From: Dyella marensis
GTDB taxonomy: Bacteria; Pseudomonadota; Gammaproteobacteria; Xanthomonadales; Rhodanobacteraceae
Direction of reading: 5' to 3'
DNA length: 64,000 nt
NCBI RefSeq assembly: GCF_900112865.1
Contig: NZ_FONH01000002.1
Span: 416,713-480,712 of the forward strand
Shown: positions 1 through 21,150 of the stretch, one piece after another
How positions within the stretch are numbered: position 1 is the first letter of the stretch
Layout: each line of letters starts with the position of its first letter
The notes under the pieces: generated by a model
Seen by the model: only the letters and a program-made list of their open reading frames with translations
What the model was told of the DNA's origin: nothing
The model's database searches: none
Position numbers and translations under genes: made by a program

Positions 1-1570
1 CTGCTTCCATCGTATTGATGGGCTCGGACGCCCTTGCATACGTGGCCAAGTAATCACGATAGCCCGGTGCGACGCGTTCGATAGCGTTGACAATCGAATC
101 CCTAGCAGGCCCATAACCGAGCGCACCCTAGCCGTTGGTGTTGGCGAGCATCTTGGACGCCTCTTGCCTCACGGCGTCCAGCATGTCCGTTCCAACCTTA
201 CCACGGATATTTGCAGCCCCATTGATGGAGTCAATGAGTTCACCGAACCGGGCACCATTGTTTCCAAGAACGCCTAGCGGACCATTCTTGAGTGTATGCA
301 GGACATCCAGAACAGGCTTGGGGTTAACCATGTTGTTGTCGATCGCTTGACGTGCCTGAGCAAATGCATCTTGCGTCTTCTTGCTAAACACGCCGTCTTC
401 GAGATCCTTGAGCGCAGCCCAAGCATCATCCTCCTGCATGGCACCGCTCTTCACCTGGTCAACGACACTCCTGGCCGATTTGAGCGAGTCAAAGTCATTG
501 GCTGACATGCGCCCCGGCTTGTTCAATATCGAGTCGAATGCATCCTATGCTCCGGCCCACCGAACAATGGGGCGTGAGTCCGTCAAGTACTGCTGCACGA
601 ACGGATCAACTGCGGTACGGCGATTTGCTTTGGCAGCCTGCATGTCAGCATCCGTGCCGGCAAGCTGCTGCACCAGCGACAAGCGTGCATTATTGTTCGC
701 TGCATCCTGGGCAGCAAAGGACGGAGCTGTCGCGGGGTTGTTGCGCAGCGCACGTTCTACCTACACCGCCTCCGGCGTTTGCAACACCTGAGCAACCGAA
801 GGGCTTTCTCCCGGCACGAGCTGAGGCGCGCTACGCAGGAGCCCGGCCACCACCGGATTGTTACCAGTCATACGCGCCACATTGGCGTTAGCAATGGCGC
901 TGGGATTTGTGATGTGTTGAACGGCATTCTTGACACCACCTCCCAGTAGGCCGCCAGTATCTAGGCCAACCTTCATCAGCGGCCCCGTGGCCGCGCCAAA
1001 CCCAATCTGCAAGGCCTTCTGGTCAGCGTAGGAGGGCGTAGGAGCCTTACCCTCCACCAAATCCTGCAGGTTGTTCTGCGGGCCGCTGGTGACGGGCTGG
1101 GAGGCGCCAATCAAGGCCCCCTCCGTTGCCAGAGTGCCGAGCTTGCCTAGGTACGTGGTTGCCTTGGGCAGCACACCGAGCGCGCGAAGCTCGCCAATTC
1201 CAGTCAGCCAGGGAAGCGTCTCGCCTACACCGGCGCCAATATACGAACCTGCCGTATCTGGCGTGGCTTGCTGGTAGGCCTGCTCGCGTCGCTGGATATA
1301 GCTGTCGAGGTCGCGCGTCATTCCCTTCAGGCCACCACCAATCGGACTGGCGGCATTGAGGTGCATGACGCCCTAGGCAATGCCAAGAGGGAGATTGCCA
1401 AGATGATGAAGCGCGGCATCCCCCATATTGTTGCCGAAGTCGTTGACTCTTTGGTAAAGCGAGCGCTCGGGCGGCGCCAGCTCGGAAGAAACAACAGCGC
1501 TCGTTCCGGGCTGACTCTAAAGATCGGACAGCTTCTGAGTCTGGCCGTTGAGTTCAGATAACTTGGGCAT
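1..1570 (-). CDS. Large phage virion protein (probable internal/ejection protein), TAG-recoded, 3' end off window
   Basis: Starts at ATG 1570, whose bases overlap the TGA of the upstream gene (TGATG), and stays open to the window edge (523 codons) if TAG is read as sense. In-frame TAGs are codons 18, 66, 270, 342 and 481 (plus-strand cta at 1517, 1373, 761, 545 and 128); there is no TAA or TGA. The protein is Ala/Gln/Asn-rich and mostly helical, with a Gly-rich stretch around 65-90. A segment reading SPSVAQVLQTPEAV then TAG then VERALRNN runs smoothly across the codon and resembles large internal virion proteins of podoviruses; that family call is by style only. Under the standard code the gene would be five fragments. 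Downstream gene(s) lie outside the window. Confidence 0.85.
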
Positions 1571-3600
1571 CACTGCACCTCCTGCATTTCGGGATCGGTC
1601 GGATCAGACAAGCCAATCACCCTCCATTTCTTGCCATTGACAGTGAGTACCTGTCCAATCATGTAGCGCTTGGCTTTGACATCGCTCCTTTGCATCTGAG
1701 CACTACCCTGCTGTGCCTTGCCTTGATCCTTTCCTGTTCCATAGAGAGCATTGCCGGCAAGCGACTTGATATCGTCCAGCACTTTCTGTTGATCAGTGGA
1801 AAGGATGTTAAGCCGAGAAGCTGCCATTGGACCAAGAGCGGTTACGGCTTGATCATTGATCGCCGTAAGGCGCCCCTGAACAAGATCCGCAAGGGTGCCC
1901 AAGGATCCTTGGAGCTTTTCGATCGGCTGCGACGGATCAAGCATCTGAGCGACATGCTCGCGGTCGGCCAGTGCGGATCCCGTCCCCGCAAACAGCTTTG
2001 CCGTTTCGTCACCTATGGACTTGGCGGCCTGTTGATAGGCACCAAGTGCACGCGTGTACTAAGGATCGGTCTTTCCTTGCTTGGTCGCCCACCAATTTTT
2101 CGCTCGGTTGTAATCTGCAACGCTGCTCAGGTCGAGCTTGGGCATGATGCTTGAGATAGTCTGCAGATGATTTGCAATCGTCTATACAGACCGAATTTGA
2201 TTGGCTGGAGCGTTCGGCGACGTGGCACTAGTGAACTGCTTCGCCGCATTGGCTCGCGCATCGTAATTCGTGGCGTCGAAATCGGGGTCAGCCTGCACAA
2301 CATCCTGCATGAGCTGCCAAGACTGCGGATTCTTCAACGAGAATCCCTTTGGGATCGGATAACGGCCATCAATAACAGACTGTGCGAGCTGCTTCCTGGC
2401 AGGTGGGAGCGTATCCAAATATTGTTGACCGGTAGGAAGATTGCCATCAGGCATGGGTACGGCTGTGGCGTTACCCATGACCGTCTACGGCTTTACCCCA
2501 TAAGCAGCCTCAAGTGCGGCAGGCTGAGGCACGCCAAATTTAAGCAGCTTTGCGTATTTCTCATCCTCGGCATTGATCGTCTTGGACGGAGTTTGAAAGC
2601 TAATGCGGCCCGGTGGCAGGTTGGCATCGGATGAGGCGTCTGACCGCCCAGCCAGTTCCAATACCTTGGGTACGTAATTTTGCGTCTCTGCAGGAGCGCT
2701 CGCCAGAGCGGCCTGCGTATTGCCGCCATTAGTCGCAAGAGCCTTGTCCCAATTACCCGGCCCCCAGTTGTAAGCGGCCAAACCACCCGCCGTACCGTAT
2801 TTGTTGGTAAGTGCCCCAAGATACTGCTGGCCAACGCGGTACGTGTCCCGCGGCGTTCCGTTAGAAGGCGCGATACCAAATCCGGCGCTGGCGGCTGTGG
2901 ACGGCATCACCTGCAGTAAACCAGTTGCGCCCTTGGGGGACACGGCATCGGGGTTGCCGCCAGATTCTACCTGCTGGACGCGAGCAAGTATCTGCGGCGA
3001 AACATCGTACGGTGACTCGCTGTTGGTGATCGGCAGAGATAGCGAGGGGCGACTGCTCTATTGCTGAGCGCTCCCGTCCTGAAGGTATGAGTTGAATCCA
3101 TCTGGATACACCTGCATCGCTCCCTTGGGCGTGTCTCTCAATTCAGGCTTTCCGCCATGGAGCATGAACAGTGCATTCGTAGCGTCTTCGGGATAAGACT
3201 TGCCGTACTCACGGACAGCTGATGCAACGTCTACATTGCCGTTGGCGTCCGTGTTGTTAGCGATGGCTTGCCGGAGCGCAAATTTTTGGTCTGCCTCACG
3301 CTTCGAGTTGGCTTGTGCAAACTGCATATTCCCCAGGGTCGCTTGCTCGATGGCACCCGTGTAGCGGCGACGCTGTAGGTCGTCCGCGCCCGACTGGACA
3401 CTATCTAGGCCGCCGAGAAGGCCACTGGAGATCGCCTAGAAAGGCGTGACGCCAGGCTGGCCGTTCGCAGAGAGAATGCCCAAACCTGCGCGAAGCAGGC
3501 CCTGGTTAATGAGTACTCGCTAGTCGTCTTTAGACAAGCCCAGACCGTAACCCGTGGTCGTAGGCTAGGCACTGCCAAACATTGAGTCAAAGAGTCCCAT
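1570..3600 (-). CDS. Internal virion protein with lytic transglycosylase (SLT) domain, TAG-recoded
   Basis: 676 residues from ATG 3600, preceded by a strong AGGAGG, to TGA at 1570-1572. Seven in-frame TAGs: codons 12, 27, 55, 181, 372, 473 and 514. An SLT domain lies at about 200-300: catalytic Glu in QQVESGGNP (E212), then GATGLLQVMPST (224-235) and the AAYNWGPGN signature (275-283). Such domains locally cut peptidoglycan during DNA ejection by short-tailed phages. The TAG at codon 181 comes 31 codons before the catalytic Glu and the one at 372 just after the domain, so an active virion protein needs read-through of all seven. The C-terminal half is unrecognised. The gene overlaps the next start by one base, so the two are translationally coupled. 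Confidence 0.9.
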
Positions 3601-3603
3601 GGC

Positions 3604-3639
3604 TCATACCTCCTAGCCGTTCTGTCGAATGTTGTACAT
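3604..3639 (-). other. Possible 11-codon leader ORF ahead of the transglycosylase gene
   Basis: ATG at 3639 follows a GAGGA-like site. It reads MYNIRQNG, TAG, EV, then TGA at 3604-3606, four bases before the next ATG. In the standard code it ends at TAG inside the downstream Shine-Dalgarno; with TAG as sense it runs through that site to TGA. It could couple translation to TAG decoding, or be chance. Confidence 0.25.
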
Positions 3640-3673
3640 GTGTCTATCCTCAGCGAATGAATTTTTTGATTTG

Positions 3674-3692
3674 CTTTGATTGAGAATCAAAG
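3674..3692 (-). terminator. Hairpin after the 3700-4089 gene, weak terminator or processing site
   Basis: A perfect 8-bp inverted repeat CTTTGATT-GAG-AATCAAAG starts 8 bases after the TAA at 3700. No T-run follows on the minus strand, so intrinsic termination is doubtful. It is one of few strong structures within the recoded block. Confidence 0.35.
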
Positions 3693-3699
3693 TACGGAT

Positions 3700-4089
3700 T
3701 TAGTGGATCTGCCTGGACGCCGACTTTCCGCTGGCACTGCCAATAGCGACAACCTTCCCGTCCTCGTCACCATCGGTAACCACCTTCGGAACCGGCACCC
3801 ACGCCTCAATGATTCCGAGGACGTGCGCATATGGGATCCATACCGTCAGTGGCGACGGATCATCTTCATAGCCGGCGACAGTGAAGCCAAGCAAACTTGA
3901 GTGAAGGATGTTTATGCCAGAACAATGCAGCACCGGATGGCTAGACCCACCCTCCTAACCAACCTCCTGAGGGAACTGCATGAATGCAGATGCTCCCTCT
4001 TTGTGCAGCTAGGCAAGTGGTGACGTGCCATCGATGATGACGCGGTATTGCTTCACGTAGTCAATGCCAGCGATCTGTGTGTTTTCCAT
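3700..4089 (-). CDS. Small phage late protein, TAG-recoded, unknown function
   Basis: 129 residues from ATG 4089 to TAA 3700-3702, with TAG at codons 27 and 45. Without recoding only 26 codons would follow the start. The N-terminus (MENTQIAGIDYVKQYRVIID) and the C-terminal part, with alternating hydrophobic residues and an acidic TDGDEDGK turn, read like a small beta-rich protein, but I recognise no family. It starts 14 bases after the gene at 4104-4538, in the same late operon. Ending in TAA while containing TAG is consistent with TAG being sense and TAA/TGA being stops in this block. Confidence 0.75.
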
Positions 4090-4103
4090 AGTCGTCAATC
4101 CTT

Positions 4104-4538
4104 TCAGTTGCCAAAGTAGCCTTGACCGCGGATCGCTCGGCGAGCGGCAGCCCCTACCGGGCGCGTGCCAATGTTCAAGCCAGGACCGATGTAGCCGGCC
4201 GGTTGACCATTGACCTGGCCAAGCTGTGGACGCCGAAGAGCGCCGCCAAGCAATCCAGTTGGCGCTTGGCCTCCAGTTGGCAGGCCGGACGTACCGCCCG
4301 CAAGAGCGGAAAGGAGGCCGTAGATGTCCGTGCTCTGCCTGCCCTGCTGGGAGAGGGCCCATGGCCCCAGCTACGACCAATCGATTCCCTGCGATGCGGG
4401 CACAGCATTTCCGCCGCCAAGGACGTTTGAATAGTTCATACCCTAAGTGTTGCCAGTGTCCCAAAGAGGCATATAGGGCGAGAGAGACGACGGGTCATAG
4501 GCCATCTACGGCTAACCGGTGAGGAAATTGAATGGCAT
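4104..4538 (-). CDS. Small Gly/Pro-rich phage late protein, TAG-recoded
   Basis: 144 residues from ATG 4538, preceded by GAGGTGA, to TGA 4104-4106. Four TAGs lie at codons 9, 11, 32 and 56, two of them within the first 11 codons (MPFNFLTG, TAG, P, TAG, MAYD). The protein is rich in Gly, Pro, Leu and Gln and ends in a basic RPVGAAARRAIRGQG segment. No known domain is recognised; position suggests a minor virion or ejection component. In the standard code only an 8-residue peptide would be made from this start, so the gene cannot be expressed as a protein without suppression. Confidence 0.75.
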
Positions 4539-4546
4539 AGGTCACC

Positions 4547-5638
4547 TCACAAGTAGTAGCCGAGCAAGCCGACGCCGGCGCCGATAGCCGTACCCCAGCC
4601 AGGAGCTACGGAACCAGCTGCACCGCCAGCGATCATGGAGCCGATGGCACCACCCGCGGCGGCACCACCGCCAGCCGAGGCCAACGCACCGCCAGCAGTA
4701 CGGGGCTTATAGGCGGGATTGAGGCCACTGGTCGCAGAGCCGGTGAAGTTGCCAGAGATCGAGTTCAAGGCATTGCCATAGTTGTTGAGCTGCTGCTGGG
4801 CATAGCCATAGTTGCGCATATACCAGTCGTTGTAGTTCTGATTAATGGCGCCCTGGTTGTAGTCCTGGATCAACGGCGACAAGCTGCCGTACTGCCCCAA
4901 GAACTGGCTCTGCAGCGCATTCGCACCCGTGACGCCTTGCGAGGCATTGAGGATGAGCCCTGCGTTCTACTGGGCAGCCCCCATGCGGTTGGCGATGTCC
5001 TGCTGATAGAGGCCGGCGTTACGTGCCAGGTCGGTCTGCTGGGCCTGCACATTGCGATTTAGGGCGTTCTCTGCCAACTGCTGCTGGTTCTGGTAGTCCT
5101 GGCCGTAGAGGCTCGTAGATACCTGCCCAAGGTTCTAGGCGAGGGTGTTCTGGGACTGCTGCATGGCATCGTTGTAGGCGCTACCACCGAACGCCCCATT
5201 GGAGGCGAACTAAGCCGCCAGCGCCGGAGAGGTGTTCTTGTTGTAGCTGTCCACGATGCTCTGCTGCGCCTGGTTCACCATCTGGCCGAGGTAGGGGTTC
5301 TGTCCGGCGTATTGGTTCGTCCCCACTTGCGTGGTCTGTCCCGTGAGGGGATTGGCACCAGGGTTGACGCTGTACTGGCCGCCCAAGATCTGCTGCAGGG
5401 CGTTCTGCTGATTCTGCTGGCTGCCGAGCTGACCCGCTGCGCCCTGCTGGGCCAGCCAGAGGGATTTGTACTGGTCTTCGGTGGGGGCTGCATTGAGCTG
5501 CCCCGGGTAGGACTAGTAGGGAAGCTAGTTCACCGCGTTGGTCTGGTTGATGAAGTTCTGATAGTCGCTCTTCAACCAGTCGGGGATCTAGGTGATTGTG
5601 GTGGTCGTCGTGTTCTTCGGTTGGCTGCTGCCGCCCAT
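4547..5638 (-). CDS. Phage late virion protein with C-terminal glycine zipper, TAG-recoded
   Basis: 363 residues from ATG 5638 (GAGGAC just upstream) to TGA 4547-4549. Six TAGs: codons 17, 38, 42, 143, 168 and 224. The N-terminus has a Thr run then IPDWLKSDYQNF; around 36-50 the frame reads NAVN-TAG-LPY-TAG-SYPGQL. The middle is very Gln/Asn-rich with tyrosine repeats (NDWYMRNYGYAQQQ). The C-terminal 60 residues alternate Gly/Ala (GGGAAAGGAIGSMIAGG), a glycine zipper typical of membrane-inserting ejection proteins. From memory, homologues in other short-tailed phages carry PYQ-x-Y-x-GQ at the N-terminus, matching TAG as Gln. First gene of the recoded block. The frame stays open upstream to 5866, but 5638 has the best ribosome site. 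Confidence 0.85.
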
Positions 5639-5980
5639 GGTCAAGTCCTCATAGCGATAAATGGTTTTTGGTTTGAACATGCCGTTACTACAAAGGGCCG
5701 TGCATGACCCGGCACGGCGACGGGAGGAGGCAAGCGAGCGGGCTTGTCCCCTATATACATAGGTCGCGACGTGGTGTTTTTCAGTCCCGTTCAGCTCAAG
5801 CAGTCTGGCGTCAATGTCCGCAAACTGTCCGCTTCGCATGCGGATAAATTGAGTGATCGAGACCACAGAAAGGCCACCATTTTCTACTTAAATCTACTTT
5901 AGCAAAGGAGGTATTGAACTGAATTGCACCATTGATATCGATTGTTCTCAATGAAGTGTTAGCACTAGGCCTGACAAACC
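5639..5980 (-). promoter_or_regulatory. Early/late junction, 342 bases without a confident gene
   Basis: This lies between the last standard-code gene (ends 5981) and the first recoded gene. It contains a GCCGTGC/GCACGGC hairpin at 5697-5718, an AT-rich patch around 5875-5900, and a reading frame (5639-5866) in phase with the recoded gene that has no good ribosome site. Expected here are a late promoter or an antitermination target, but I could not identify a consensus. I looked for tRNA arms on both strands and found none. Confidence 0.4.
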
Positions 5981-6862
5981 TCAGCGGCCCACTCCTCTTA
6001 ATCCAGCCTCGTTCGCCGGATCGGTGTTGTTGTTTACTGTTGTCTGCAATGGCGCGATAGCTAGGTTGGCGGCGGTATCGCCATAAGCCTGCCCTGCCAT
6101 CCGATCCATGGCCGCCCGAACCTGGCCGATAGATAGGCCCGTAAGCGAACGCGAATAGGCGTCAGCGGCCCGTCTGATCCAAATCCATAGGAGGGATAGG
6201 TAGTCGGCCAGGATCGCCCTGTAGGCCGAAGCGCGCATGTGCAATGCCTTCGCCCGCCTGTCTTGGGCAAGCTCCGCGTTCCCGAACAGGATCGCCTGCA
6301 TGGCGTCGGTGATGGCATGAATATGGGCCGACGACGTATTTCCCCGAAGTCCGCACCGCTTCACCACGGGCCAATACCGCGGCACATCTTCCGTTGCGTA
6401 AAGCATGAGGATGGCCTCCTCGGGTGCCGCCAGTTTGGCGAATCCCAAAGCAGCAATGGCGTCTACGTCTCGCCGTATCCTCGGGGCAACCTGAAAGTGT
6501 TGATGCTTCCACTTCTTAGGCTTGCGGTGCTTGACCTTCTTAAGAATGGCACTCGCCTGCTTTGCGAGCAGCGCAACTTGCCCAGTGTTAGAAACGGTGT
6601 CATCAGTCTCATCGTTCTCGTCTTTGTCTTCGGCCAGCATGAAGCGTCGCCGTTCGCGCTTCAGTACCGATAGATACTGCTCCCTATCGGCGAAGTACTC
6701 TGAGTCACGCGTTGAGCGCGCAGAAAGACCGCCTCCGTCAGCCCAATCGATATCGAACGTCCGCCAGCTCGATTGGACAGACATGGCCGTTCCCAACCGC
6801 TGTGCGACCAAGTCGATGATTGCTCGCTCCCGCTCGTCAATGGTCCGCCCACCATTGGCCAT
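5981..6862 (-). CDS. Phage protein, unknown; last standard-code gene before the late block
   Basis: 293 residues, ATG 6860-6862, TGA at 5981. No in-frame TAG. It opens with DERERAIIDLVAQRLGTAMSV and has a Lys-rich segment at about 108-120 (KKVKHRKPKKWKHQH), then a mostly helical C-terminal half with WIWIRRAADAYSR. A basic, helical protein of this size, last in the early operon and directly upstream of the late block, would suit a late regulator or antiterminator. That role is positional inference; no domain is recognised. It starts four bases after the upstream gene, so the two are probably co-translated. Confidence 0.75.
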   Translation of the reverse strand: MANGGRTIDERERAIIDLVAQRLGTAMSVQSSWRTFDIDWADGGGLSARSTRDSEYFADREQYLSVLKRERRRFMLAEDKDENDETDDTVSNTGQVALLAKQASAILKKVKHRKPKKWKHQHFQVAPRIRRDVDAIAALGFAKLAAPEEAILMLYATEDVPRYWPVVKRCGLRGNTSSAHIHAITDAMQAILFGNAELAQDRRAKALHMRASAYRAILADYLSLLWIWIRRAADAYSRSLTGLSIGQVRAAMDRMAGQAYGDTAANLAIAPLQTTVNNNTDPANEAGLRGVGR

Positions 6863-6865
6863 AGC

Positions 6866-7522
6866 TCAATCCCCGCCGGATGGCGAGAACAAATCGCATG
6901 TGTGCTTCTGCATCGGATAGTACGAACCCTTACCGTGGGTGCACTGCCCTAAAGCCGCCTCCTGATTGATCGCGCTTGACTGGTGGCCACTGCACCCCAT
7001 GCACTGCACTGACGGACGGGGGATGTAGGCTCCCGCCTTCCGAATCGCACACCAAGGACATCCCAGAGCACGTGGCCAGCCGCCCACAATGGGTAGTACC
7101 GCAGCTATGTCGGGATGGGCCCATACCGGCCCGCAGTGATGACACAGGATCGCGGCATCGTGGCCAGCGGGCCTCTTCCCCGCCCACCTCGCGGCCGAGT
7201 CATCCAGCAGTGCTAGATAAGCCACAAGTTGGGCGTCATCCAGGCCAGCACAAGCTGCCACGTCCGGATCTTGCAGCCTATGGATATGGACGGCATTGAA
7301 TCCGTGGCGACCGGCTAATGCTAAAAGGGCTAGCCGAAGATCGTAGACCGGTCTATCCGCAACTGTTGCAACACATGCAACTGGCGTAACGTGTGCAACA
7401 TCCGCAACAGCTGAAGGGGATAAAGCCCGCCAAGCCAGCTGCTTTAGCGAAAGTTTCGCTGTTGCATTCTCTAGGCGTGCAACTGTGCAACGGGCGTCGG
7501 GAATGTTAATCGCGGTCATCAT
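6866..7522 (-). CDS. Cys-rich zinc-ribbon phage protein
   Basis: 218 residues, ATG 7522, TGA 6866. The start overlaps the end of the upstream ATPase gene by 17 bases. The C-terminal half has paired metal-binding cysteines: CHHC (about 127-130), CPWC (about 155-158), CMGC (about 174-177) and a final C-x-H ... H-x-C set, suggesting one or two zinc ribbons. The N-terminal half is helical with no recognised fold. Association with primase and helicase genes suggests a DNA-binding or replication accessory role, or a phage regulator. Standard code, no TAG. Confidence 0.75.
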   Translation of the reverse strand: MMTAINIPDARCTVARLENATAKLSLKQLAWRALSPSAVADVAHVTPVACVATVADRPVYDLRLALLALAGRHGFNAVHIHRLQDPDVAACAGLDDAQLVAYLALLDDSAARWAGKRPAGHDAAILCHHCGPVWAHPDIAAVLPIVGGWPRALGCPWCAIRKAGAYIPRPSVQCMGCSGHQSSAINQEAALGQCTHGKGSYYPMQKHTCDLFSPSGGD

Positions 7523-8678
7523 CCGCCCCCTGTCCCGTGTTATGGCGCGCCTTCGGCTTAGTCTTATCGGACGGCAACTTGCCCTCGTCCCGAAGGCGGC
7601 GCACCGCTCGGGAGATAGTGGACTTATTCACGCCAAGATCGCTGGCAATCTCAGCCATCGTCATACCAAGGTCGTGCATCTCGATGATCTGCATGTCGGT
7701 CGCATCTATGACCTTCCGAGTAGCCCAGGCCTGCGTGCCGTCCGGTAGCGTTTCCAGCTTTGCCTCAAACGGCTCAACATCATCACCACTCAGTGACCGA
7801 GCCTTCTCAAAATAGACCTCAAAGCGCGCCCCCTCATTGGGCACATAGTCCGCCGGTCGCCCTAGCTTGATAACGATATCTAGCAAGTCCTCGCGCTTGC
7901 TGGTGCCTCGCTGCGCCCCACCCTTGCCGGCGTGATGGATAAACACCACCGCACGGCCCGCCGCACGTTGTGCCAGCTCCCAGGAGGCCACAGGCTCCCA
8001 GCTCTCACCCTCGTTCTCTTTGCCCCCGCGGACCAGGCAAGAGATGTTGTCCACGATGACAACCTGAGCGTCTCCCATGCACGCGTTGATTGCCTCCTGA
8101 CCTTCCAGGCTATACAGATTGGGCATGATCCCAAGGGGCTGCGCATCCGGTGTCATGATGCGTAGATAGTCGGCCGGAGCCTCCTCTATCCGGCTGGCGA
8201 TGATCGCAGCGAGGCGTTGCTGAAGATCCGCCCCGGGCATCTCTCCGTCGATATACAGCACTCGTACGGGCTGGCTTGCTCGCCAGCCAATGAACTCCCC
8301 GCCCGAGGCAAGCGCATAGGCGATGCCCAAGGCAACATGCGTCTTACCCGTGCCACGGGTGGCGTAGATCATGGACAGGGACTGTGTAGTGAGCCACGGG
8401 GCCAATAGCACCTCCCGAATTGGGAAGGGCCGCCCCAACAGCTCCGCTATCGACAGGATGACAGGTGGCGCGACGGGCGCATCAGCATGTTGTTGCAGCG
8501 TTGCATTCCTAGTGTTTGCAATCGTGCAACTCTCATAGGTCGTCTCATGCTGTCCAACGGCATCCCCTGCCCGGCGAATGGCATCCGCCAACGGGCGCGG
8601 CGTCATCTTGTCCAGCAACGCCAAGTCGCGCTCGGCGCGCTCTTCAATGGACCGAATTGCGGGATTGGGGGCGCTCAT
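7506..8678 (-). CDS. RepA-like/RecA-fold replication ATPase with C-terminal HTH
   Basis: 390 residues, ATG 8676-8678 overlapping the upstream TGA (ATGA), TAA at 7506. Walker A is RGTGKTHVALG (about 108-118), followed by YIDGEMPGADLQQRL and a Walker B of type VVIVDN before SCLVRGG, then FIHHAGKGG. These are hallmarks of the phage/plasmid RepA-type hexameric helicase loader/helicase family. The C-terminus (about 330-370) holds an HTH, AEIASDLGVNKSTISRAVRR. It probably drives replication together with the adjacent CHC2 domain protein. Confidence 0.88.
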   Translation of the reverse strand: MSAPNPAIRSIEERAERDLALLDKMTPRPLADAIRRAGDAVGQHETTYESCTIANTRNATLQQHADAPVAPPVILSIAELLGRPFPIREVLLAPWLTTQSLSMIYATRGTGKTHVALGIAYALASGGEFIGWRASQPVRVLYIDGEMPGADLQQRLAAIIASRIEEAPADYLRIMTPDAQPLGIMPNLYSLEGQEAINACMGDAQVVIVDNISCLVRGGKENEGESWEPVASWELAQRAAGRAVVFIHHAGKGGAQRGTSKREDLLDIVIKLGRPADYVPNEGARFEVYFEKARSLSGDDVEPFEAKLETLPDGTQAWATRKVIDATDMQIIEMHDLGMTMAEIASDLGVNKSTISRAVRRLRDEGKLPSDKTKPKARHNTGQGADDDRD

Positions 8679-9109
8679 ACCAGAACCTCCCGGGCGATCA
8701 GAATCCGCCCCTCGGCCACCCTAAGGCGGTCATGATCAGGACCAACCAGGGTGCGACCGCCAAGCATGTCTTGCGCAGCAATAGCCACCACCGTGGCTTC
8801 GCGTGCCAGGACGCCCAGGGTGGCTCGCCAGCCATTCTGCTTGAACGCCTCAGAGGCTTTCCTGCGGCCCTCTAGGCTCAGGTCTTTGATTCGCTCAGGG
8901 AATAGGTCCGCCATTTCCAGGCCAAGTGCTCCGAGAATTCCCGGCGTGTCATGGCAGGCGAAGCAATGAAGCATCACGCGGCCATCATCGGCCTCAGTAA
9001 TGCTGAGCGAGCCCCGGGCTTTGCCGTGGCCATTGGGACAGTCCGCACGCCAGCCATTGCCGTGCTGCCGGACGCCATTAAGGCGAGAAAGAAGGGGGGC
9101 AGCGGTCAC
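8675..9109 (-). CDS. Primase-type zinc-binding (CHC2-like) protein
   Basis: 144 residues from GTG 9109 to TGA 8675. I chose GTG 9109 because it overlaps the stop of the 28-residue peptide (GTGA) and places the zinc motif near the N-terminus; an upstream in-frame start at 9241 would run through the peptide and alpA. The motif is C24-x3-H28 ... C49-x2-C52 (DCPNGHG ... LHCFACHD), as in phage DnaG/CHC2 domains. No TOPRIM catalytic domain follows, so this is a stand-alone zinc domain that may recruit primase or recognise the origin. The rest is helical. Its stop overlaps the ATPase start. Confidence 0.75.
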   Translation of the reverse strand: MTAAPLLSRLNGVRQHGNGWRADCPNGHGKARGSLSITEADDGRVMLHCFACHDTPGILGALGLEMADLFPERIKDLSLEGRRKASEAFKQNGWRATLGVLAREATVVAIAAQDMLGGRTLVGPDHDRLRVAEGRILIAREVLV

Positions 9110-9192
9110 CGCGTCACCCCCAATAGCAGCAGGGCCAGCACGGCGCAGAGAAGAAGCGCCAGCGGTCGCGTGTCTGGATGGCGCGGCCTCAT
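9106..9192 (-). CDS. 28-residue membrane peptide between alpA and primase gene
   Basis: ATG 9190-9192 overlaps the alpA TGA (ATGA) and its own TGA overlaps the next GTG (GTGA). The peptide is MRPRHPDTRPLALLLCAVLA then a Leu-rich end LLLLGVTR: a positive N-terminus and one hydrophobic helix of about 16 residues. The tight overlaps on both sides, with a GAGGTGG ribosome site inside the end of alpA, argue that it is translated. Function unknown; it may be a membrane peptide or simply a coupling device. It is too short to recognise by homology. Confidence 0.5.
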   Translation of the reverse strand: MRPRHPDTRPLALLLCAVLALLLLGVTR

Positions 9193-9401
9193 GCCACCAC
9201 CTCGCGGGAAGCGGTGATGCGATCGGCACACCACTGGTCAACCTCAGACTCTACCCAGGCACTGACGGCGGCGCCGAGTTTCACATGCCGCGGGAAGCGA
9301 GAGGCTGCCTCAAGGCGGTAGATCTGGGAGCGACTAAGGCGCGTGCGTGAGAGAACATCGGGGAGACGGAGGAAACGGATTGGGACGGGAATGGATTCCA
9401 T
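9189..9401 (-). CDS. alpA: AlpA-family phage transcriptional regulator
   Basis: 70 residues, ATG 9401, TGA 9189. It shows the AlpA/MerR-like winged helix: RFLRLPDVLSRTRLSRSQIY (residues 9-28), then RLEAASRFPRHVKLG and the terminal WVESEVDQWC. AlpA-type proteins act as small excisionases or activators in P4-like and other prophages. It opens the overlapping chain AlpA, membrane peptide, CHC2 protein, RepA ATPase, so it may both regulate and set the pace of translation of the replication genes. Confidence 0.85.
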   Translation of the reverse strand: MESIPVPIRFLRLPDVLSRTRLSRSQIYRLEAASRFPRHVKLGAAVSAWVESEVDQWCADRITASREVVA

Positions 9402-10158: not shown

Positions 10159-10347
10159 CTGCGCTCACCTCTACGCCCTTCAAGGGGTGCCGCGCCAACC
10201 GGGGAAGGTGCCCGGGTTTCGGATGGCCGTCCTAGACGCGGCAGCGCCATTTTAAATGCAACGAGAGGGGACCAATTCAAGACGCGCCTCCCAGCCAGAC
10301 AGCGGAAAAATTCCCTTGTTTTTCAAAACCATTGCCAACCACACAGA

Positions 10348-11239: not shown

Positions 11240-11395
11240 AACCCACCTCTTGCATAGGTCTTCGGGACCAGCCTCGCCGTTGCGGCAAGGTGGCGGACGT
11301 GCAGGGTTGGCGAACCGGGGATCAAGGAAACCCGGCCAGCCCGAAGGCTGCCCTGCACGCCCACCGCAAAAGACGGGCATGCGCGCAACGGGCAC

Positions 11396-11415
11396 AAAAA
11401 AAGCGCCTTCGGCGC
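11396..11415 (-). terminator. Rho-independent terminator
   Basis: On the minus strand GCGCC-GAA-GGCGC is followed by seven T. It lies between the promoter at 11477-11505 and the early operon, so it could attenuate that operon; it could also simply end the 11526-12824 transcript. Confidence 0.7.
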
Positions 11416-11431
11416 CGTTGCGCCTTGATCT

Positions 11432-11470
11432 CTTCAGGTCGCCAAACCTGGTCGCCGAATTGGCGGCGAC
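11432..11470 (-). promoter_or_regulatory. Inverted repeat in the early leader
   Basis: GTCGCCG-CCAATT-CGGCGAC forms a perfect 7-bp stem, followed by GGTTTGGCGACC, which repeats half of it. It sits just upstream of the terminator and could be an alternative (antiterminator) structure or a binding site. Confidence 0.4.
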
Positions 11471-11525: not shown

Positions 11526-12824
11526 CTACTCTTCGGAATCGTCTCTCGGGTAGCGCGGGGCATATAGCTCCGTGGGCGTCCTCCAATCCAGGAACACGTC
11601 CCAAGGACTCGAAGTCTTAGCGAACTCCTTAGCTAGCGCTATCCGAGCGGAAACCTCTTCCCTCATCTCTTCTGGCAATTCGCCCAAACGCACCTCAATG
11701 GATTCGAAGAAACGCCTAGTGCTCTCAGCGCGTTCCCACATCCTTATGAGTTTGATTAAGGAGGCTCTACTTTGCTCTCTCGACTCCTTGGCTTCGAGCC
11801 GATCATCGCGGCGATCGATGAGCTCTAGTTCTCGCTCCCACTCTTGACGCCTAAGCTCCTCCTTCCTATCCGCCGCCAGGACGAGTTTCGACAGCTCATC
11901 GCCCATGGCCCTCATCTCATTGACGATGCTGGGAATCTGGCTCTCTAAGGAATCAGTCTCTGTCTCCTGCCAATGCCTTGTCCAAGAAACATGATGGTAT
12001 GGCGCATAGAGTTGGAGACGAAATCGCCCTGTAGGTCGGTCTTTGTTTGTCGTCCAGGACCAATCTCTCTCACCACGACGCAACTTCGGCGGAATGTAGT
12101 CGGAATCCCTGATGTACTTATCTCCACCCACATACCGCATGAGCACCGACTCAGCCATTTCGAGAATTGCTATCCCTATAGCGATTTCACCGACATACAC
12201 CACTGTCGGGCGAGATGGCTTCCAAATAGTCGGATAGTAAGATCGAGGCTCTTTGGGTATCTCGTGCCAATCGATACCTGGCCGACTCAACCCTCCAGCG
12301 TGAGGCGCTATAGCCACACGAAAACCTCGCAACTCAAGCGAGTTGAATAGTTCGTTGGACACACTAAGCGCTCTAACCAAAGCTGGCGATGATGTCGTTA
12401 TATCGACAAGCAGCTTTTTATAAGGCTTCAGGAAAATTCCCTCGCCCAAGGCCCCTTCGCTAGCTGGCCTTCCAGACTCAAAGTGCTTCCGTGCTCCATT
12501 AATCAAAGCGTGCGTTCCGGTGCCCGATGCCCTGCGTTTCTGCCGCGGCTCTGATGGCTCCGGCGCCGACTCCGTGAAGCGCTGCGTACCTTGATACCCG
12601 CCCTCCTTGGACCACTCCAAGGGCTCACCAAATCGTTGTGGAGGAAGAGCAGGAACTTTCATATTCGCGCCGGCCTGAAGCTTGGCCCAATACCCTCTGC
12701 CCGGCCTCGGCACATTCAGAATTTCGCAAACGCGAGTCAAATAGCTTCCGGAAACGCCAAGCTCTTTGGAGAGCTTGGTCATCGGGGTCGCCCAAATTGC
12801 CTGGTAGATTTCTTCGCGCTTCAT
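11526..12824 (-). CDS. Cargo protein with N-terminal HTH, unknown function
   Basis: 432 residues from ATG 12824 to TAG 11526-11528. Earlier in-frame starts exist, but MKREEIYQAIWATPMTKLSK is the typical N-terminus of this type of mobile-element protein. A homeodomain-like HTH continues through GVSGSYLTRVCEILNVPRPG and GYW. A mixed middle region follows, then a long charged coiled coil at about 315-400 (Glu/Arg-rich). The TAG is backed by a TAA five codons later. Size, position between phage modules and domain style fit accessory cargo, possibly defence, but no activity can be named. Confidence 0.65.
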   Translation of the reverse strand: MKREEIYQAIWATPMTKLSKELGVSGSYLTRVCEILNVPRPGRGYWAKLQAGANMKVPALPPQRFGEPLEWSKEGGYQGTQRFTESAPEPSEPRQKRRASGTGTHALINGARKHFESGRPASEGALGEGIFLKPYKKLLVDITTSSPALVRALSVSNELFNSLELRGFRVAIAPHAGGLSRPGIDWHEIPKEPRSYYPTIWKPSRPTVVYVGEIAIGIAILEMAESVLMRYVGGDKYIRDSDYIPPKLRRGERDWSWTTNKDRPTGRFRLQLYAPYHHVSWTRHWQETETDSLESQIPSIVNEMRAMGDELSKLVLAADRKEELRRQEWERELELIDRRDDRLEAKESREQSRASLIKLIRMWERAESTRRFFESIEVRLGELPEEMREEVSARIALAKEFAKTSSPWDVFLDWRTPTELYAPRYPRDDSEE

Positions 12825-13544: not shown

Positions 13545-15104
13545 ATGTCTGCCCAACACCGCTATGGCAAGGATGGCTCGTCCGTCCCCGTGGCCGAGTA
13601 CATCCGTATGTCTACAGACAAGCAGGACATGTCTGTGGACAACCAACGAACCGCCATCGCTAGTTACGCTGCCGATCACAACATGCGCGTTGCTCAAAGC
13701 TACGTGGACGAGGGGCGTAGCGGTCTGGATGTCGAAGGACGCCCCGGCCTTCAGCGGCTTCTAAGTGATGTACAGAATCACTGCACTGGCTGCGTGGCCA
13801 TTTTAGTTCTAGACGTTAGCCGCTGGGGCCGGTTCCAGAACGTCGATGAGTCAGCCTTCTATGAGTTCCTGTGTACTCAGCATGGCATTCGCGTTATCTA
13901 TGTGGCCGAGCCTTTCGGGGACAATGATGGACCGCTTCAATCAGTCCTAAAGAGCCTCAAGCGATCGATGGCCGCGGAGTACAGCCGGGAGCTGTCAGCC
14001 AAAGTCTTTGCTGGCCAAGCTAGATTGGTTCGCCAAGGCTTCGTTATGGGCAGCCCAGCTGCATATGGCCTAAGCCGCTTGCTGGTCGATGCATCGGGAA
14101 AACCACGCTGCATTTTGAAGCGTGGAGAACGCAAAAGCATTGCCACTGACCGCGTGCGCCTGGTGCCAGGTCCACCGGAAGAGGTGGAGGTGGTCCAATG
14201 GATGTTTAGGCAGTCGGCCGCAGGCGCGAGCATTAAAGACCTTACCGAACGGCTCAATAAACGCGGCAAACGGAATGCCAACGGCGAACCATGGCGCATG
14301 TCCACAATCAACGACATGCTCAACGATCTGCGCTATACCGGAACCATTATTTTTGGTCGACCTAACCCGCGCGGGCTGATTAAGCCTGACGCACAAGATC
14401 CACCTAGGGAGCCGATCCGTGTCGACAATGCATTCCCCGCGATAGTGACCCATGAGCTGTTTCAAGCGGCACAAGCAAGGCGCGAGGAAAGGGTAAGGAA
14501 GCTAACTGACGACGAGCTGCTTGAAGCACTGCGCGTCCTATGGAAGCGCGATGGCCGTATCACAACCCGCCTAATGAACGCAGACCCCAAAGTGCCCACC
14601 GCACAAACATATCTCCATCGTTTTGGCAGCCTTCGATATGCTTACAGACGTATCGGTTATACCCAAGATCGATACCTCGGGTACGGCGACGTGCGTGACC
14701 GCATTCAAGTATGGCTACCTAGCGTGATGGGATGTGTCCGCGACGCGCTGGAGGATGATGGATCGAGTGTCACTCAAAAAGGGCGAGCACTCCGCATTGA
14801 TGAAACATGGACCGCTTCGTTCTATCTAATGCAGTCTTCCAGTGCAGGCGGCCCGAAAAAGATTCGATGGATACTGCCTAGCCTTCGGGTTGCTGCGGAT
14901 ATCTTGGTGGGCATCCGTATGGATATGAAAGGAGACCGACCCATCGATTATTTGATCTTGCCGGCGATCAGCGCTAAGACATGGCCGGATGTTATCCAGG
15001 AGAAACCGGGCGCAGGCGCTCGCTTCTACCTCTTCGAATCACTTCAAGTGCTTCGCGATCTGGCCAACCTTTCAAGGAGGGCACCAGACGATGCCAGGCG
15101 GTAA
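13545..15104 (+). CDS. Large serine recombinase
   Basis: 519 residues, ATG 13545, TAA at 15104. N-terminal resolvase domain with the nucleophile in YIRMSTDKQ (Ser about 23), DEGRSGLD, VLDVSRWGRF, and the E-helix motif AEYSRELSAKVF. A recombinase domain follows (GSPAAYGLSRLLVD; AGASIKDLTERLNKRG) and then a long C-terminal DNA-binding region. It lacks a clear Cys4 zinc ribbon. Related to but clearly distinct from the recombinase at 15644-16858. It probably moved its own element into the prophage, or inverts or excises a segment. Its 3' end overlaps the next gene by 14 bases. Confidence 0.88.
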   Translation: MSAQHRYGKDGSSVPVAEYIRMSTDKQDMSVDNQRTAIASYAADHNMRVAQSYVDEGRSGLDVEGRPGLQRLLSDVQNHCTGCVAILVLDVSRWGRFQNVDESAFYEFLCTQHGIRVIYVAEPFGDNDGPLQSVLKSLKRSMAAEYSRELSAKVFAGQARLVRQGFVMGSPAAYGLSRLLVDASGKPRCILKRGERKSIATDRVRLVPGPPEEVEVVQWMFRQSAAGASIKDLTERLNKRGKRNANGEPWRMSTINDMLNDLRYTGTIIFGRPNPRGLIKPDAQDPPREPIRVDNAFPAIVTHELFQAAQARREERVRKLTDDELLEALRVLWKRDGRITTRLMNADPKVPTAQTYLHRFGSLRYAYRRIGYTQDRYLGYGDVRDRIQVWLPSVMGCVRDALEDDGSSVTQKGRALRIDETWTASFYLMQSSSAGGPKKIRWILPSLRVAADILVGIRMDMKGDRPIDYLILPAISAKTWPDVIQEKPGAGARFYLFESLQVLRDLANLSRRAPDDARR

Positions 15105-15643: not shown

Positions 15644-16858
15644 TCAATTATCATCACCACAAACCTTCTCCACGCACTTTGCGCAGCAATCCGCTTTCGC
15701 TCCTAGGTATCGATAGTCGTGGCCAGTGTCGAAACCGATTAACTCGTACGCTCGAAGTAAGCCGCCAAACCGGCGAGCGTATGATCTGCTGGATGGCATG
15801 CCCTCCTGTTCATCAATGATTGGACCGGAAAGCCATCCGGTCTTTTCATAGACATCTCGAAGACGCGCAAGCATTTCGTCATCGCTCCAGCATCTGGCAC
15901 GACGGAGAATGATCTTGCGTGCCTCAAGGAACCACTGCTTCGGCACAATGGGTTGAAACGCCTCTTTACACCTCACCCACATATCGTGTCCATTGCGGAC
16001 GTGCCGTTGCTGGAGCTTGAACGAGTTCTTGTTGTAGACGTTCTCGCCAAAATACTTCTCGTTTGTGAGGACTGTGTGGACGGTACCCTTCGTCCATGAG
16101 CGCTGACGATCAGTGAGCAGTCCTCGGGCGTTAAGATCACGAGCTATCTCCTGCTCACTGCGCCGAAGCACGAGAAATTGTGTATAGATGTTTCGGACAA
16201 TGGCTACTTCTTCAGGTGGTCCAGGAACCAAGATGACTCGATCTGTCTGCAGGCTTTTGTACTCCCCCGCAGACAGAAGTCCCTTCTCTTTTCGATGTCC
16301 ATCTACGAGCATGCGACGCAGCCCTGGGCCAGGCGACCCTCCCTGCCGGAAACCCAGTTCGATAAGGCGACATTGCCCTAGAAAGACCCGGTGCGAGAGT
16401 TCACGACTGTACTCGCCAGCCATCGCCCTCTTGATACTCTTCATGATGGTCGCCATGGGGGTTCCATCATTCTCAAAGGGCTCACCGCAATAGAAGATTT
16501 GGATGCCTACGCGTCGACATAGGTACTCGTAATAGGCGCTCTCGTCCGCATCTTGAAACCGGCCCCAGCGGCTGACGTCATAGACGAGCACGGCATTAAA
16601 ATCCGCGTCGCCCGACTGTACGTCAGCGATCAACTTTTTGAGGGCGTCGCGCCCTTCTAGGCTGAGACCACTTTTCCCTTCGTCGGTATAAGTGCGGACG
16701 ACTTCCATGCCGTGTTGCGCGGCATACCGCTGGATGGCTTCGCGCTGATTCTCTGTCGAATAGCGCTGATGATCGGTTGACATGCGAACGTACTGAGCGG
16801 CCCGGATAGGTCGCCCTCCCCTCACGCGTTCTGCCGTTTGGGGCCTGCTGTATCCCAT
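15644..16858 (-). CDS. Serine recombinase, C-terminally short
   Basis: 404 residues, ATG 16858, TGA 15644. Resolvase domain with YVRMSTDHQ, DEGKSGLS, VYDVSRWGRF and AGEYSRELSHRVF. The recombinase domain carries GPGLRRMLVD and LVPGPPEEVAIVRNIY. After GLLRAYELIGFDTGHDYRYL the family normally continues for many residues; here it ends in a short Cys-rich tail (ADCCAKCVEKVCGDDN), suggesting C-terminal loss. It is convergent with the recombinase at 13545-15104, and the two align over the catalytic domain by eye. Activity is uncertain. Confidence 0.85.
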   Translation of the reverse strand: MGYSRPQTAERVRGGRPIRAAQYVRMSTDHQRYSTENQREAIQRYAAQHGMEVVRTYTDEGKSGLSLEGRDALKKLIADVQSGDADFNAVLVYDVSRWGRFQDADESAYYEYLCRRVGIQIFYCGEPFENDGTPMATIMKSIKRAMAGEYSRELSHRVFLGQCRLIELGFRQGGSPGPGLRRMLVDGHRKEKGLLSAGEYKSLQTDRVILVPGPPEEVAIVRNIYTQFLVLRRSEQEIARDLNARGLLTDRQRSWTKGTVHTVLTNEKYFGENVYNKNSFKLQQRHVRNGHDMWVRCKEAFQPIVPKQWFLEARKIILRRARCWSDDEMLARLRDVYEKTGWLSGPIIDEQEGMPSSRSYARRFGGLLRAYELIGFDTGHDYRYLGAKADCCAKCVEKVCGDDN

Positions 16859-19597: not shown

Positions 19598-20899
19598 CTA
19601 GCGGGCCACATGCGCCTTTATCGGCACAACCTGCCCGCTCGCCATTAGCCCATCCAAGTAGTCCGCCCAGGCCTGCATGACCTCCCGGCGCTTCTCTCGG
19701 AACTTCACCCGGGCATAGGCCGCCTCCACCTCATCCTTCGGAGCATGCGCCAGCTGGGCCTCCAGCACATCCACATCGATCCCCAACCGCTCCCGCCCCA
19801 AGGTACGCAGGGAGGCCCGGTTACCATGTGGCGTGTGCTTGCCCTGGAATCCGAGGTCCCGGAGGGCTTTGCTCAGGGCATCGCGACTGAGGTGAGGGCT
19901 GCTCTGACGTCCCTGCGGCGGGAACACATACTCACTCCCGTCCGTCCGCTCCCTCATCTCCCGCAGGACCACTAGCGCCTGCTCGGGCAGCGAGGTAGTG
20001 AAATCCTCACCCGTCTTCATTCGATTGCTGCCGTCAGGGTTCATGCCGGGAATCTTCCATTCCCCTGCATCCAGATCTATCTCTGGCCATCGAGCACTGG
20101 CCACGACACCAGGACGCATCACTGTGAGGGATGCGAGGATGAGGGCCGCGCGTACTGTGCGATTGGGGTAGTCATAGACCGCCCGCATGATTTCGCCAAG
20201 GGTTTTCTCGTCATCCGTCACTGCCGGCATATGGCCAGTGCGGAACTTGGGCAGCATGCGATCAAGCCGGAGCCGGCTCTCATCTCTACGCAGACCTTCA
20301 TTGATCGCCTGGTCAACGATGCTCCCGATGTACTGCCGAGCCTTGCGCGCCAGCTGAGGCGTTTCGGCCGCCATCTTGAGCAGCACGGGACGGACATCCT
20401 TGGTCTCCAGCGTTCGCATGTCCATGTCGCCGATCGCTGGCACTAGGTAGGAGTCCACGACAAGGAGTGCCTTGCGATAGGTCTCAGCAGCCCAGGTGGG
20501 GCGCTTTTCTGAAAGCCAACGCCCGGACACGGACCGGAGCGACGCGTTCTGAGCCTCCTGCTTGGCAAAGGCCTCGGCCTGCTCCTCCGCGGTCTCCTCG
20601 GCGGCTGCCCTCCTGGCCACGCTGCGCAGGCCTTGAGTAGCCCTCCCCTGGGCCGCGTCACGCTGTATTTCCATCGCGCGCACGCGAGCTTGAGCCAGGG
20701 ACATGCCCGGGTAGTGCCCAATCACGCAGGGCGCGGGCCGGGTGCCATCCAGAAGGCGATAGCGCACTGACCAGGTCTTACGGCCCGCTGGGCTGACCAG
20801 TAGGGACAAGCCATTGCCGTCAGAGAGGGCGTAGGCCTTGGCCGCAGCCTTGGCTTTGCGGATCTGAAGCTCAGTAAGCGGGTCAGCTAGGCGTGGCAT
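19598..20899 (-). CDS. int: Tyrosine integrase, P4 type
   Basis: 433 residues, ATG 20899, stop TAG 19598-19600, with TGA three codons later. It has the N-terminal DUF4102 arm-binding domain (LTELQIRKAKAAAKAYALSD, GRKTWSVRYRL), a core-binding domain, and a catalytic domain with the first Arg in TVMRPGVVASARW, HGNRASLRTL as the H-x-x-R box, and the terminal LAHAPKDEVEAAYARV with the nucleophilic Tyr. It integrates the prophage into the adjacent tRNA-Leu. Ending in TAG with a near-immediate backup stop means suppression would add only three residues, so it works in both coding regimes. Confidence 0.93.
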   Translation of the reverse strand: MPRLADPLTELQIRKAKAAAKAYALSDGNGLSLLVSPAGRKTWSVRYRLLDGTRPAPCVIGHYPGMSLAQARVRAMEIQRDAAQGRATQGLRSVARRAAAEETAEEQAEAFAKQEAQNASLRSVSGRWLSEKRPTWAAETYRKALLVVDSYLVPAIGDMDMRTLETKDVRPVLLKMAAETPQLARKARQYIGSIVDQAINEGLRRDESRLRLDRMLPKFRTGHMPAVTDDEKTLGEIMRAVYDYPNRTVRAALILASLTVMRPGVVASARWPEIDLDAGEWKIPGMNPDGSNRMKTGEDFTTSLPEQALVVLREMRERTDGSEYVFPPQGRQSSPHLSRDALSKALRDLGFQGKHTPHGNRASLRTLGRERLGIDVDVLEAQLAHAPKDEVEAAYARVKFREKRREVMQAWADYLDGLMASGQVVPIKAHVAR

Positions 20900-20970: not shown

Positions 20971-21053
20971 TGGACACCCCTGGACGCCTAGAAACAAAAA
21001 ACCCCGCAGCTACGCGGGGTTTCGTGTATTCCGTGGACGTCCTTGGACGCTAT
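20971..21053. repeat. Imperfect direct repeats near the attachment site
   Basis: TGGACACCCCTGGACGCCTA (20971-20990) recurs as TGGACGTCCTTGGACGCTAT (21034-21053), each holding two TGGAC boxes. Position between integrase and tRNA suggests integrase or excisionase binding sites. Confidence 0.4.
20998..21023 (-). terminator. Intrinsic terminator downstream of tRNA-Leu
   Basis: AAACCCCGC-AGCTAC-GCGGGGTTT is symmetrical, with A-rich and T-rich flanks. It lies about 40 bases beyond the 3' end of tRNA-Leu and probably ends the tpiA-secG-tRNA transcript. Confidence 0.75.
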
Positions 21054-21064
21054 GGAACTTCAAT

Positions 21065-21150
21065 TGGTGCCCAAGGGGGGACTCGAACCCCCACGACTTG
21101 CGTCGCTACCACCTCAAGGTAGTGCGTCTACCAATTCCGCCACCTGGGCA
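21065..21150 (-). tRNA. tRNA-Leu(GAG), prophage attachment site
   Basis: 86 nt with encoded CCA. The acceptor TGCCCAG pairs with TTGGGCA; the anticodon stem-loop CTACC-TTGAGGT-GGTAG gives anticodon GAG; a long variable arm and GGTTCGAGTCC T-arm follow. The integrase gene lies off its 3' end, the standard position for a tRNA attachment site. The gene is intact, so the phage restored the 3' end on integration. Confidence 0.95.

Follow-up and report, generated by a model that had tools for sequence, protein, structure and literature searches.

TAG-rich late genes in an element of Dyella marensis

In this study we analyzed a stretch of 64,000 nucleotides of Dyella marensis, called the window below (G000:C27:416713-480712), in which an integrated element carries five consecutive minus-strand late genes with in-frame TAG codons. 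G000 denotes the bacterium's own genome, a 5.0-Mb assembly in 44 contigs; other G numbers denote further genomes, most of them from a set of 233 Rhodanobacteraceae genomes, and L numbers denote phage or satellite loci. The element likely belongs to a separate satellite-like family and is not a self-sufficient prophage; the members of this family are called satellites for short. A preliminary description had reported 24 TAG and no TAA or TGA in about 1835 codons of the five genes within the window, and our recount yielded the same figures. The gene g713 runs out of the window and was traced on the same 627,886-base contig to its end at window position -571. Over the five whole genes we counted 30 TAG, 116 CAG and 33 CAA codons and neither TAA nor TGA. 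All five genes start with ATG, and the earlier observation that the visible gene ends are TGA or TAA holds for the whole genes (three TGA, two TAA). For random stops divided evenly among the three stop codons, the chance of finding TAG in 30 out of 30 cases would be about 3^-30. Translation with genetic code 15, the check that had been proposed, resulted in open products of 363, 144, 129 and 676 amino acids as well as g713.

Reading of TAG as glutamine

It is near certain that these late genes read TAG as glutamine. Nine late-gene families with members from phage as well as satellite loci were aligned, TAG being masked as X, and the masked positions were scored by column statistics. With each contig taken once, 620 TAG columns gave +750.6 bits for Gln, and the next residue was Glu with -295.9. 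A first count of 661 TAGs (Gln +795.3, Glu -311.4) had included three contigs twice, as L103, L106 and L064 repeat L187, L208 and L210. When near-copies were removed as well, the remaining 428 TAGs gave +524.5 for Gln. With the phage sequences alone as reference, the 66 satellite TAGs in scorable columns reached +72.6 bits for Gln, followed by Ser with -36.5. The TAG-to-Gln recoding suggested earlier was thus borne out both for the satellites and for the joint set. In the analysis of 661 TAGs the own residue was recovered for ten of ten hidden control codons (CAG, CAA, TCG, AGC, GAG, AAC, TAC, TGG, CTG and AAG), and Gln ranked first in seven of the nine late-gene families. Moreover, four hidden sense codons were recovered correctly in the analysis of the satellite TAGs.

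Some details weigh against a uniform assignment to glutamine. In the scaffold family Glu scored slightly higher than Gln (21.3 over 20.9), and in the tail gene Ser reached 16.4 with Gln at -5.1. Gln came first in only 28 of 37 loci, eight of the nine others holding one to three TAGs. Locus L119 with nine TAGs favored Glu (12.3) over Gln (10.7), and G087 showed a near-tie of Asp with 6.3 and Gln with 6.2 (n=4). Besides, some TAGs lie in Asn, Lys or Ala columns, and the TAGs of g129 have no phage column in which they could be scored.

The early genes of the window element follow the standard code, and 5 of these 12 genes end in TAG. Since they were defined by table-11 frames, they lack internal TAG by construction; therefore, the early-protein homologues of other elements served as an independent test. 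Aligned with code 15, these contained no TAG, except for one in a decayed copy of the early protein e293 in a second element of G050.

A family of satellite-like elements

The protein e293 was present in 8 of the 233 Rhodanobacteraceae genomes, in eight diverged elements from three genera. In all eight elements a TAG-containing ejection gene (g363 in the window) lies downstream of e293 on the same strand, in some of them with intervening genes. This gene contains 3-9 TAG per copy, amounting to 39 over the eight copies, and no other stop. Four gene families counted in the satellites together held 69 TAG and no stop of another kind. The ejection gene is preceded by a 28-nt hairpin motif, which was found once in each of the eight satellite genomes and in none of the 225 others; the reversed control gave no match, and in the phage loci compared the motif was absent at up to five mismatches. 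Likewise, e293 was not found in the phage loci compared, and an IMG/VR scan with 87 pattern matches revealed no relatives of it. Two elements are bounded by exact attachment (att) repeats of 13-14 nt that share the same core, and measure about 20.0 and 18.0 kb.

Further observations were made around these elements. The hairpin arms occur once with a different loop in L285, and a fragment of a g713-like gene (L285:10212-10795) lies beside tRNA-Leu(taa) in G108, perhaps as the remnant of another satellite. In the element of G106 the ejection gene is followed by a gene (L279:13860-15056) that has a partial PADLOC match to RmrA (3.2e-12). The second G050 element (L282, 4383-11606) comprises an integrase, a RepA C-terminus, the early gene e218 and the decayed e293 with stops, has no ejection gene, and shows a 14-nt repeat of a tRNA-Asn end at 11593.

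In seven satellite pairs the ratio of non-synonymous to synonymous differences (pN/pS) of the ejection gene was 0.10-0.45 at a synonymous divergence (dS) of 1.1-1.7. As the ratio was also low for pairs inside satellite-only clades (0.10 for G108-G106, 0.29 for both G122-G107 and G122-G104), the products of the ejection genes have functioned in full length inside satellites. In the ejection-gene tree the eight satellites are interleaved inside the recoded phages with at least five label changes: G087 stands beside L188/L189, G050 beside L190, and G000 in the clade of the Dyella phage. Therefore, ejection genes have been swapped between phages and satellites. The window ejection genes share 84% DNA identity over about 1 kb with L187. 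In an order-wide search the ejection gene was found in 9 of 398 genomes, all of them Rhodanobacteraceae.

Recoded phage relatives and their suppressor tRNAs

Relatives were sought in the 233 Rhodanobacteraceae genomes and in IMG/VR scans. More complete relatives were found as prophages of SU10-type podoviruses in Dyella and Luteibacter, and IMG/VR contains kin of these. They include prophages of Dyella sp. SG609 (G086, with the same genus handle g1 as the window host) and Luteibacter sp. Sphag1AF (G118, g16), both Rhodanobacteraceae. The prophage of Dyella SG609 (about 40 kb) encodes a terminase (PF04466), an SU10-type portal (PF23899), a scaffold, an SU10-type adaptor (PF24175), a DNA-ejection protein and a tail protein; no major capsid gene was identified. 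Across ten late genes it contains 52 TAG and no other in-frame stop. Judged by the lengths of open reading frames only, its first half follows the standard code and a code-15 block begins at terL. The standard-code relatives L200 and L204, with a portal that is 57% identical, contain neither TAGs nor a CUA tRNA. A standard-code relative of the ejection module was also seen in L098 and L090/L091 (G158), which carry homologues of g713 and p464 with 0 TAG and a partial terminase match.

A search with Rfam yielded a sub-threshold CUA tRNA (23.3 bits) about 1 kb upstream of terL in the Dyella SG609 prophage, and one at a like position in the Luteibacter phage. A custom scan of the phage loci revealed 16 distinct CUA tRNAs with a score of at least 21; suppressors without an encoded CCA may be missed because the scan awards 2 points for it. 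Among 68 phage loci with DNA upstream of terL or portal, 19 showed both TAG use and a CUA tRNA, 46 neither, two TAG only and one the tRNA only. The agreement in 65 of 68 loci corresponds to a Fisher p of 1.2e-13, which is optimistic since the kept loci include near-copies (L188/L189, L192/L196 and L199/L215). Eleven ids stand outside this count, namely eight duplicate records, the near-copies L102 and L059, and L168, whose tRNA match with a score of 20 lies below the cut-off of 21 and was judged to be due to chance; satellites were excluded as well. Three loci speak against a strict coupling, as L210 (two TAG) and L244 (one TAG) have no tRNA at the cut-off and L109 has a tRNA and 0 TAG.

The 16 suppressors have in common that positions 1 and 72 are unpaired and that they carry G2-C71 and G73. 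CCA is encoded in 15 of them and replaced by CAA in L109. Their backbones comprise types with a short variable arm, Glu-like types, types with a truncated D arm and types with a long variable arm; in the 12 suppressors with a short variable arm the pairs 2-71 to 7-66 are all standard. In L201, which has a long-variable-arm suppressor, 20 TAGs indicated Gln (+24.5) and not Glu (-8.0) or Ser (-10.2). As a control we inspected 46 distinct host tRNA sequences (tRNA-Ser(tga) not among them) and found a 1-72 mismatch in three, the initiator and two adjoining genes whose position 72 is uncertain because they lack an encoded CCA. ARAGORN detected 13 of the 16 suppressors, all labelled as tRNA-Pyl. The three that it missed (L099, L100 and L191) have a truncated D arm, and L099 and L100 were also below the Rfam threshold (as G086 and G118).

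Bacterial glutamine determinants include G73, U1-A72, G2-C71, G3-C70 and U35 (PMC9976931). The same review describes that an amber tRNA-Ser was converted to glutamine by changes in two acceptor pairs, which established 1-72 and 3-70. Amber suppressors obtained by selection from tRNA-Asn were all destabilized at 1-72 and inserted glutamine (PMC9976931). The acceptor-stem features of the 16 phage suppressors fit charging by glutaminyl-tRNA synthetase (GlnRS). Judged by this stem, the GlnRS of the host should charge the phage suppressor.

Gene content of the window element

The features of the window element are listed in Table 1. A second att copy near window position -3426 is imperfect (22 of 28 bases) and would set the length of the element to about 24.5 kb.

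Table 1. Late genes and further features of the window element (positions in the window)
Feature	Position	Strand	Remarks
g713, large ejection-module protein	1..1570, continuing beyond the window to -571	minus	713 amino acids, 11 TAG, 5 of them in the window
g676, ejection-module protein with lytic-transglycosylase domain	1570..3600	minus	676 amino acids, 7 in-frame TAG
g129, small late protein	3700..4089	minus	129 amino acids, 2 in-frame TAG; homologues found in other satellites only
g144, late protein	4104..4538	minus	144 amino acids, 4 in-frame TAG
g363, DNA-ejection protein homologue	4547..5638	minus	363 amino acids, 6 in-frame TAG read as Gln; phrog_4287 match, 2.8e-7
Conserved hairpin, arms GCCGTGC/GCACGGC	5697..5726	minus	58 nt upstream of the g363 start
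e293, marker protein of the satellite family	5981..6862	minus	standard code
e218	6866..7522	minus	standard code; also in the second G050 element
RepA-like AAA_25 ATPase with helix-turn-helix, probable replication protein	7506..8678	minus	Pfam/PHROG scans
Primase-like protein (weak)	8675..9241	minus	phrog_6088, 1.7e-7
int-alpA RNA	10176..10242	minus	RF02996
C4 antisense RNA	11286..11371	minus	RF01695
isrK RNA	11396..11470	minus	RF01394
Large serine recombinase	13545..15104	plus	Pfam
Large serine recombinase	15644..16858	minus	Pfam
Tyrosine integrase	19598..20899	minus	Pfam
Attachment site at tRNA-Leu(gag)	21053..21149 (tRNA 21065-21149)	minus	

By comparison with helper-type proteins, no homologues of terL, portal or scaffold were found in the G000 element. 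The other seven satellites gave no match to the helper-type proteins either, although an unrelated terminase in an unscanned gene would escape this comparison. The SU10 portal, present in G086, had no match in the whole own genome. None of the 49 own-genome tRNAs (E<=0.001) carries a CTA anticodon, a search that a weak divergent tRNA could escape. Therefore, a custom scan and a suppressor covariance model were added to the tRNA search and to Rfam; none of the four revealed a CUA suppressor tRNA in the window element. In nine element regions (the eight satellites and the second G050 element) the best score for a CUA tRNA was 18, the level of shuffled sequences, and in the satellite loci the covariance model recognized ordinary tRNAs only. 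A megablast of the element against phage records gave no match, and a sigma-70 promoter scan near the hairpin found no promoter. The hairpin may act as a terminator, in packaging or in regulation.

The two serine recombinases are related to each other and match HNH repeats weakly. Five other satellite loci (G122, G108, G104, L278 and L281) contain homologues, one of which is a copy in G087 with 83% identity. The left end of the element encodes a 388-amino-acid protein with 0 TAG on the minus strand (window -2729 to -1563), for which PADLOC gave weak matches only. The PADLOC scan of ten cargo and other proteins gave only weak or partial matches.

Origin and expression of the late genes

We assume, with a probability of roughly 0.7, that the element in the window is satellite-like, that its virion genes follow the code of a helper, and that their translation depends on tRNA-Gln(CUA) provided by a recoded helper. 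The five genes would then be the late virion-ejection module of an element integrated at tRNA-Leu. Its early genes follow the standard code; its late genes, with TAG as glutamine, would have been exchanged with a group of SU10-type podoviruses whose late genes likewise read TAG as glutamine. The amber suppressor of a recoded phage, encoded upstream of its terminase gene, would be charged with glutamine by the host GlnRS. Acting in trans, it would allow the satellite ejection proteins to be made, and these may join or replace those of the helper in particles with satellite DNA. Packaging would take place in helper particles, and the benefit for the satellite may be silence in the absence of a helper. 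As no CUA tRNA was found in satellite or host, the ejection proteins should need a recoded helper. Suppression in trans best explains the data because the genes are under selection, use a codon that their carrier presumably cannot read, and are shared with phages able to read it. On balance, and somewhat less firmly, we also favor the extended view that the late genes are unreadable by satellite or host and stay locked until the GlnRS-adapted suppressor of a recoded helper arrives, and that the helper suppressors converged on a broken 1-72 pair from several backbones.

The preliminary description had seen here a recoded prophage in a gammaproteobacterium. The recoding has held, as has the host, which belongs to the Rhodanobacteraceae and to the same genus as Dyella sp. 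SG609; a prophage reading its own genes has not. Self-sufficiency finds no support in an element in which no terminase, portal, scaffold or suppressor tRNA was detected and which belongs to a separate satellite-like family.

A number of observations count against the satellite-like interpretation. Repeats of the att type were found in three of six satellites searched, including the imperfect one of G000, and were not found in three; two satellites offered no tRNA as a starting point. Within the 20 kb examined, the G050 element showed no match to the window integrase. A wider alignment of G104 that reaches upstream of the gene start includes one TGA, and G108 and G106 group beside a Luteibacter phage at weak support (93/76). 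Selected proteins from G000, G122, G087 and G107 were scanned with PHROG or Pfam, and the absence of a capsid gene is judged from these scans. Among ten G000 proteins no Pfam match to psu, sid, delta, epsilon or alpha was found, with small open reading frames and alpA outside the scan. Furthermore, the portal was detected in 3 of the 233 genomes (strong in G086 and G118, weak in G060) and never together with a satellite. Since portal candidates and satellites do not co-occur, the helper may normally arrive by infection.

The strongest competing explanation, which we nevertheless hold to be unlikely, is a defective prophage, that is, a recoded temperate podovirus from which the suppressor and the packaging and head genes were deleted and whose ejection genes are no longer translated. 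The homology of the ejection genes to those of fuller recoded phages such as L187 would agree with this, as would the lack of a detectable terminase or portal in the element and of a suppressor in the genome. Decay would hardly account for eight diverged elements in three genera that share a private e293 and hairpin absent from the phage loci compared, for purifying selection on copies free of TAA and TGA, or for two elements of about 18 and 20 kb with exact att repeats. A deletion-derived prophage had been considered as a candidate and was dropped, as the same early genes occur in other genomes without head genes.

It is improbable that satellite or host encodes a cryptic suppressor tRNA too degenerate for the tools used. 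ARAGORN missed the suppressors of the Dyella and Luteibacter phages, so absence by such a tool is no proof; the genome is split into 44 contigs, and one covariance-model result applies to the matches listed. Against such a tRNA stands that the scan which recovered the 16 phage tRNAs at scores of at least 21 did not exceed 18, the shuffled level, in the nine element regions, and that the covariance model identified ordinary tRNAs only in the satellite loci. That TAG is not reassigned at all, the genes being pseudogenes or expressed as fragments, is hardly credible: in its favor, the search of the host for a CUA tRNA was negative and TAG ends five early genes of the element, but in-frame stops that are TAG in 30 of 30 cases, the glutamine signal in the columns, purifying selection and a matching tRNA in related phages argue otherwise, in line with the earlier judgement that random stops in decayed genes are unlikely.

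Comparison with known systems

Most recoded phages known so far are gut phages that have not been cultured and are difficult to test. Borges et al. reportedly described in 2022 phages that read TAG as glutamine with recoding of the late genes. The recoding logic should be directly testable in the present case because the satellites and small prophages involved belong to named soil bacteria (Dyella and Luteibacter). It has been suggested that phages use the recoding of stop codons to time the expression of their late genes. If satellites indeed need the tRNA of their helper, they would depend on it in a new way, through the genetic code, which would also guard them against untimely expression. 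Annotation with the standard code would split these genes into pieces. As ARAGORN, in the settings used here, labels 13 of the 16 tRNAs as tRNA-Pyl and misses three, such suppressors may have been overlooked, and those with a truncated D arm may be so widely.

Code-15 phages described earlier likewise use TAG as glutamine mainly in late structural genes, with early genes in the standard code, and likewise encode a Sup-CTA tRNA, here found in the related phages (Peters et al. 2022, PMC9523058; PMC10607447; PMC10879173). In contrast to those phages, whose examples are mainly from the gut, the phages studied here are podoviruses that occur as prophages in Gammaproteobacteria, and the window element yielded no tRNA of this kind. 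Amber suppressors selected in the laboratory for glutamine insertion have the anticodon CUA and a disrupted first pair of the acceptor stem, as do the phage tRNAs; the latter differ in being natural, comprising 16 distinct tRNAs on several backbones (PMC9976931). The 16 phage tRNAs thus look like a natural repeat of these laboratory selections.

The recoded relatives share the portal (PF23899), the adaptor (PF24175) and homologues of the ejection module with SU10-type podoviruses, a group that we take to be the phiEco32-type, whereas in the window element the ejection module alone was found. The C4 antisense RNA is a trait of P4 and is shared with P4-like satellites, although we saw it in the window and in G108 only. 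P4-like satellites also resemble the elements described here in having an integrase and a replication ATPase, in that no packaging genes were found, and in a presumed dependence on a helper (PMC8628076). They differ from them in that our elements measure 18-24 kb where this was determined and carry virion ejection genes, written in the code of the helper. Among the matches listed for the open-access literature there was neither a satellite using the code of its helper nor recoding in Dyella or Luteibacter phages. Phages that read TAG as glutamine and phage satellites are both already known, and the recoded podovirus prophages of Gammaproteobacteria extend the former.

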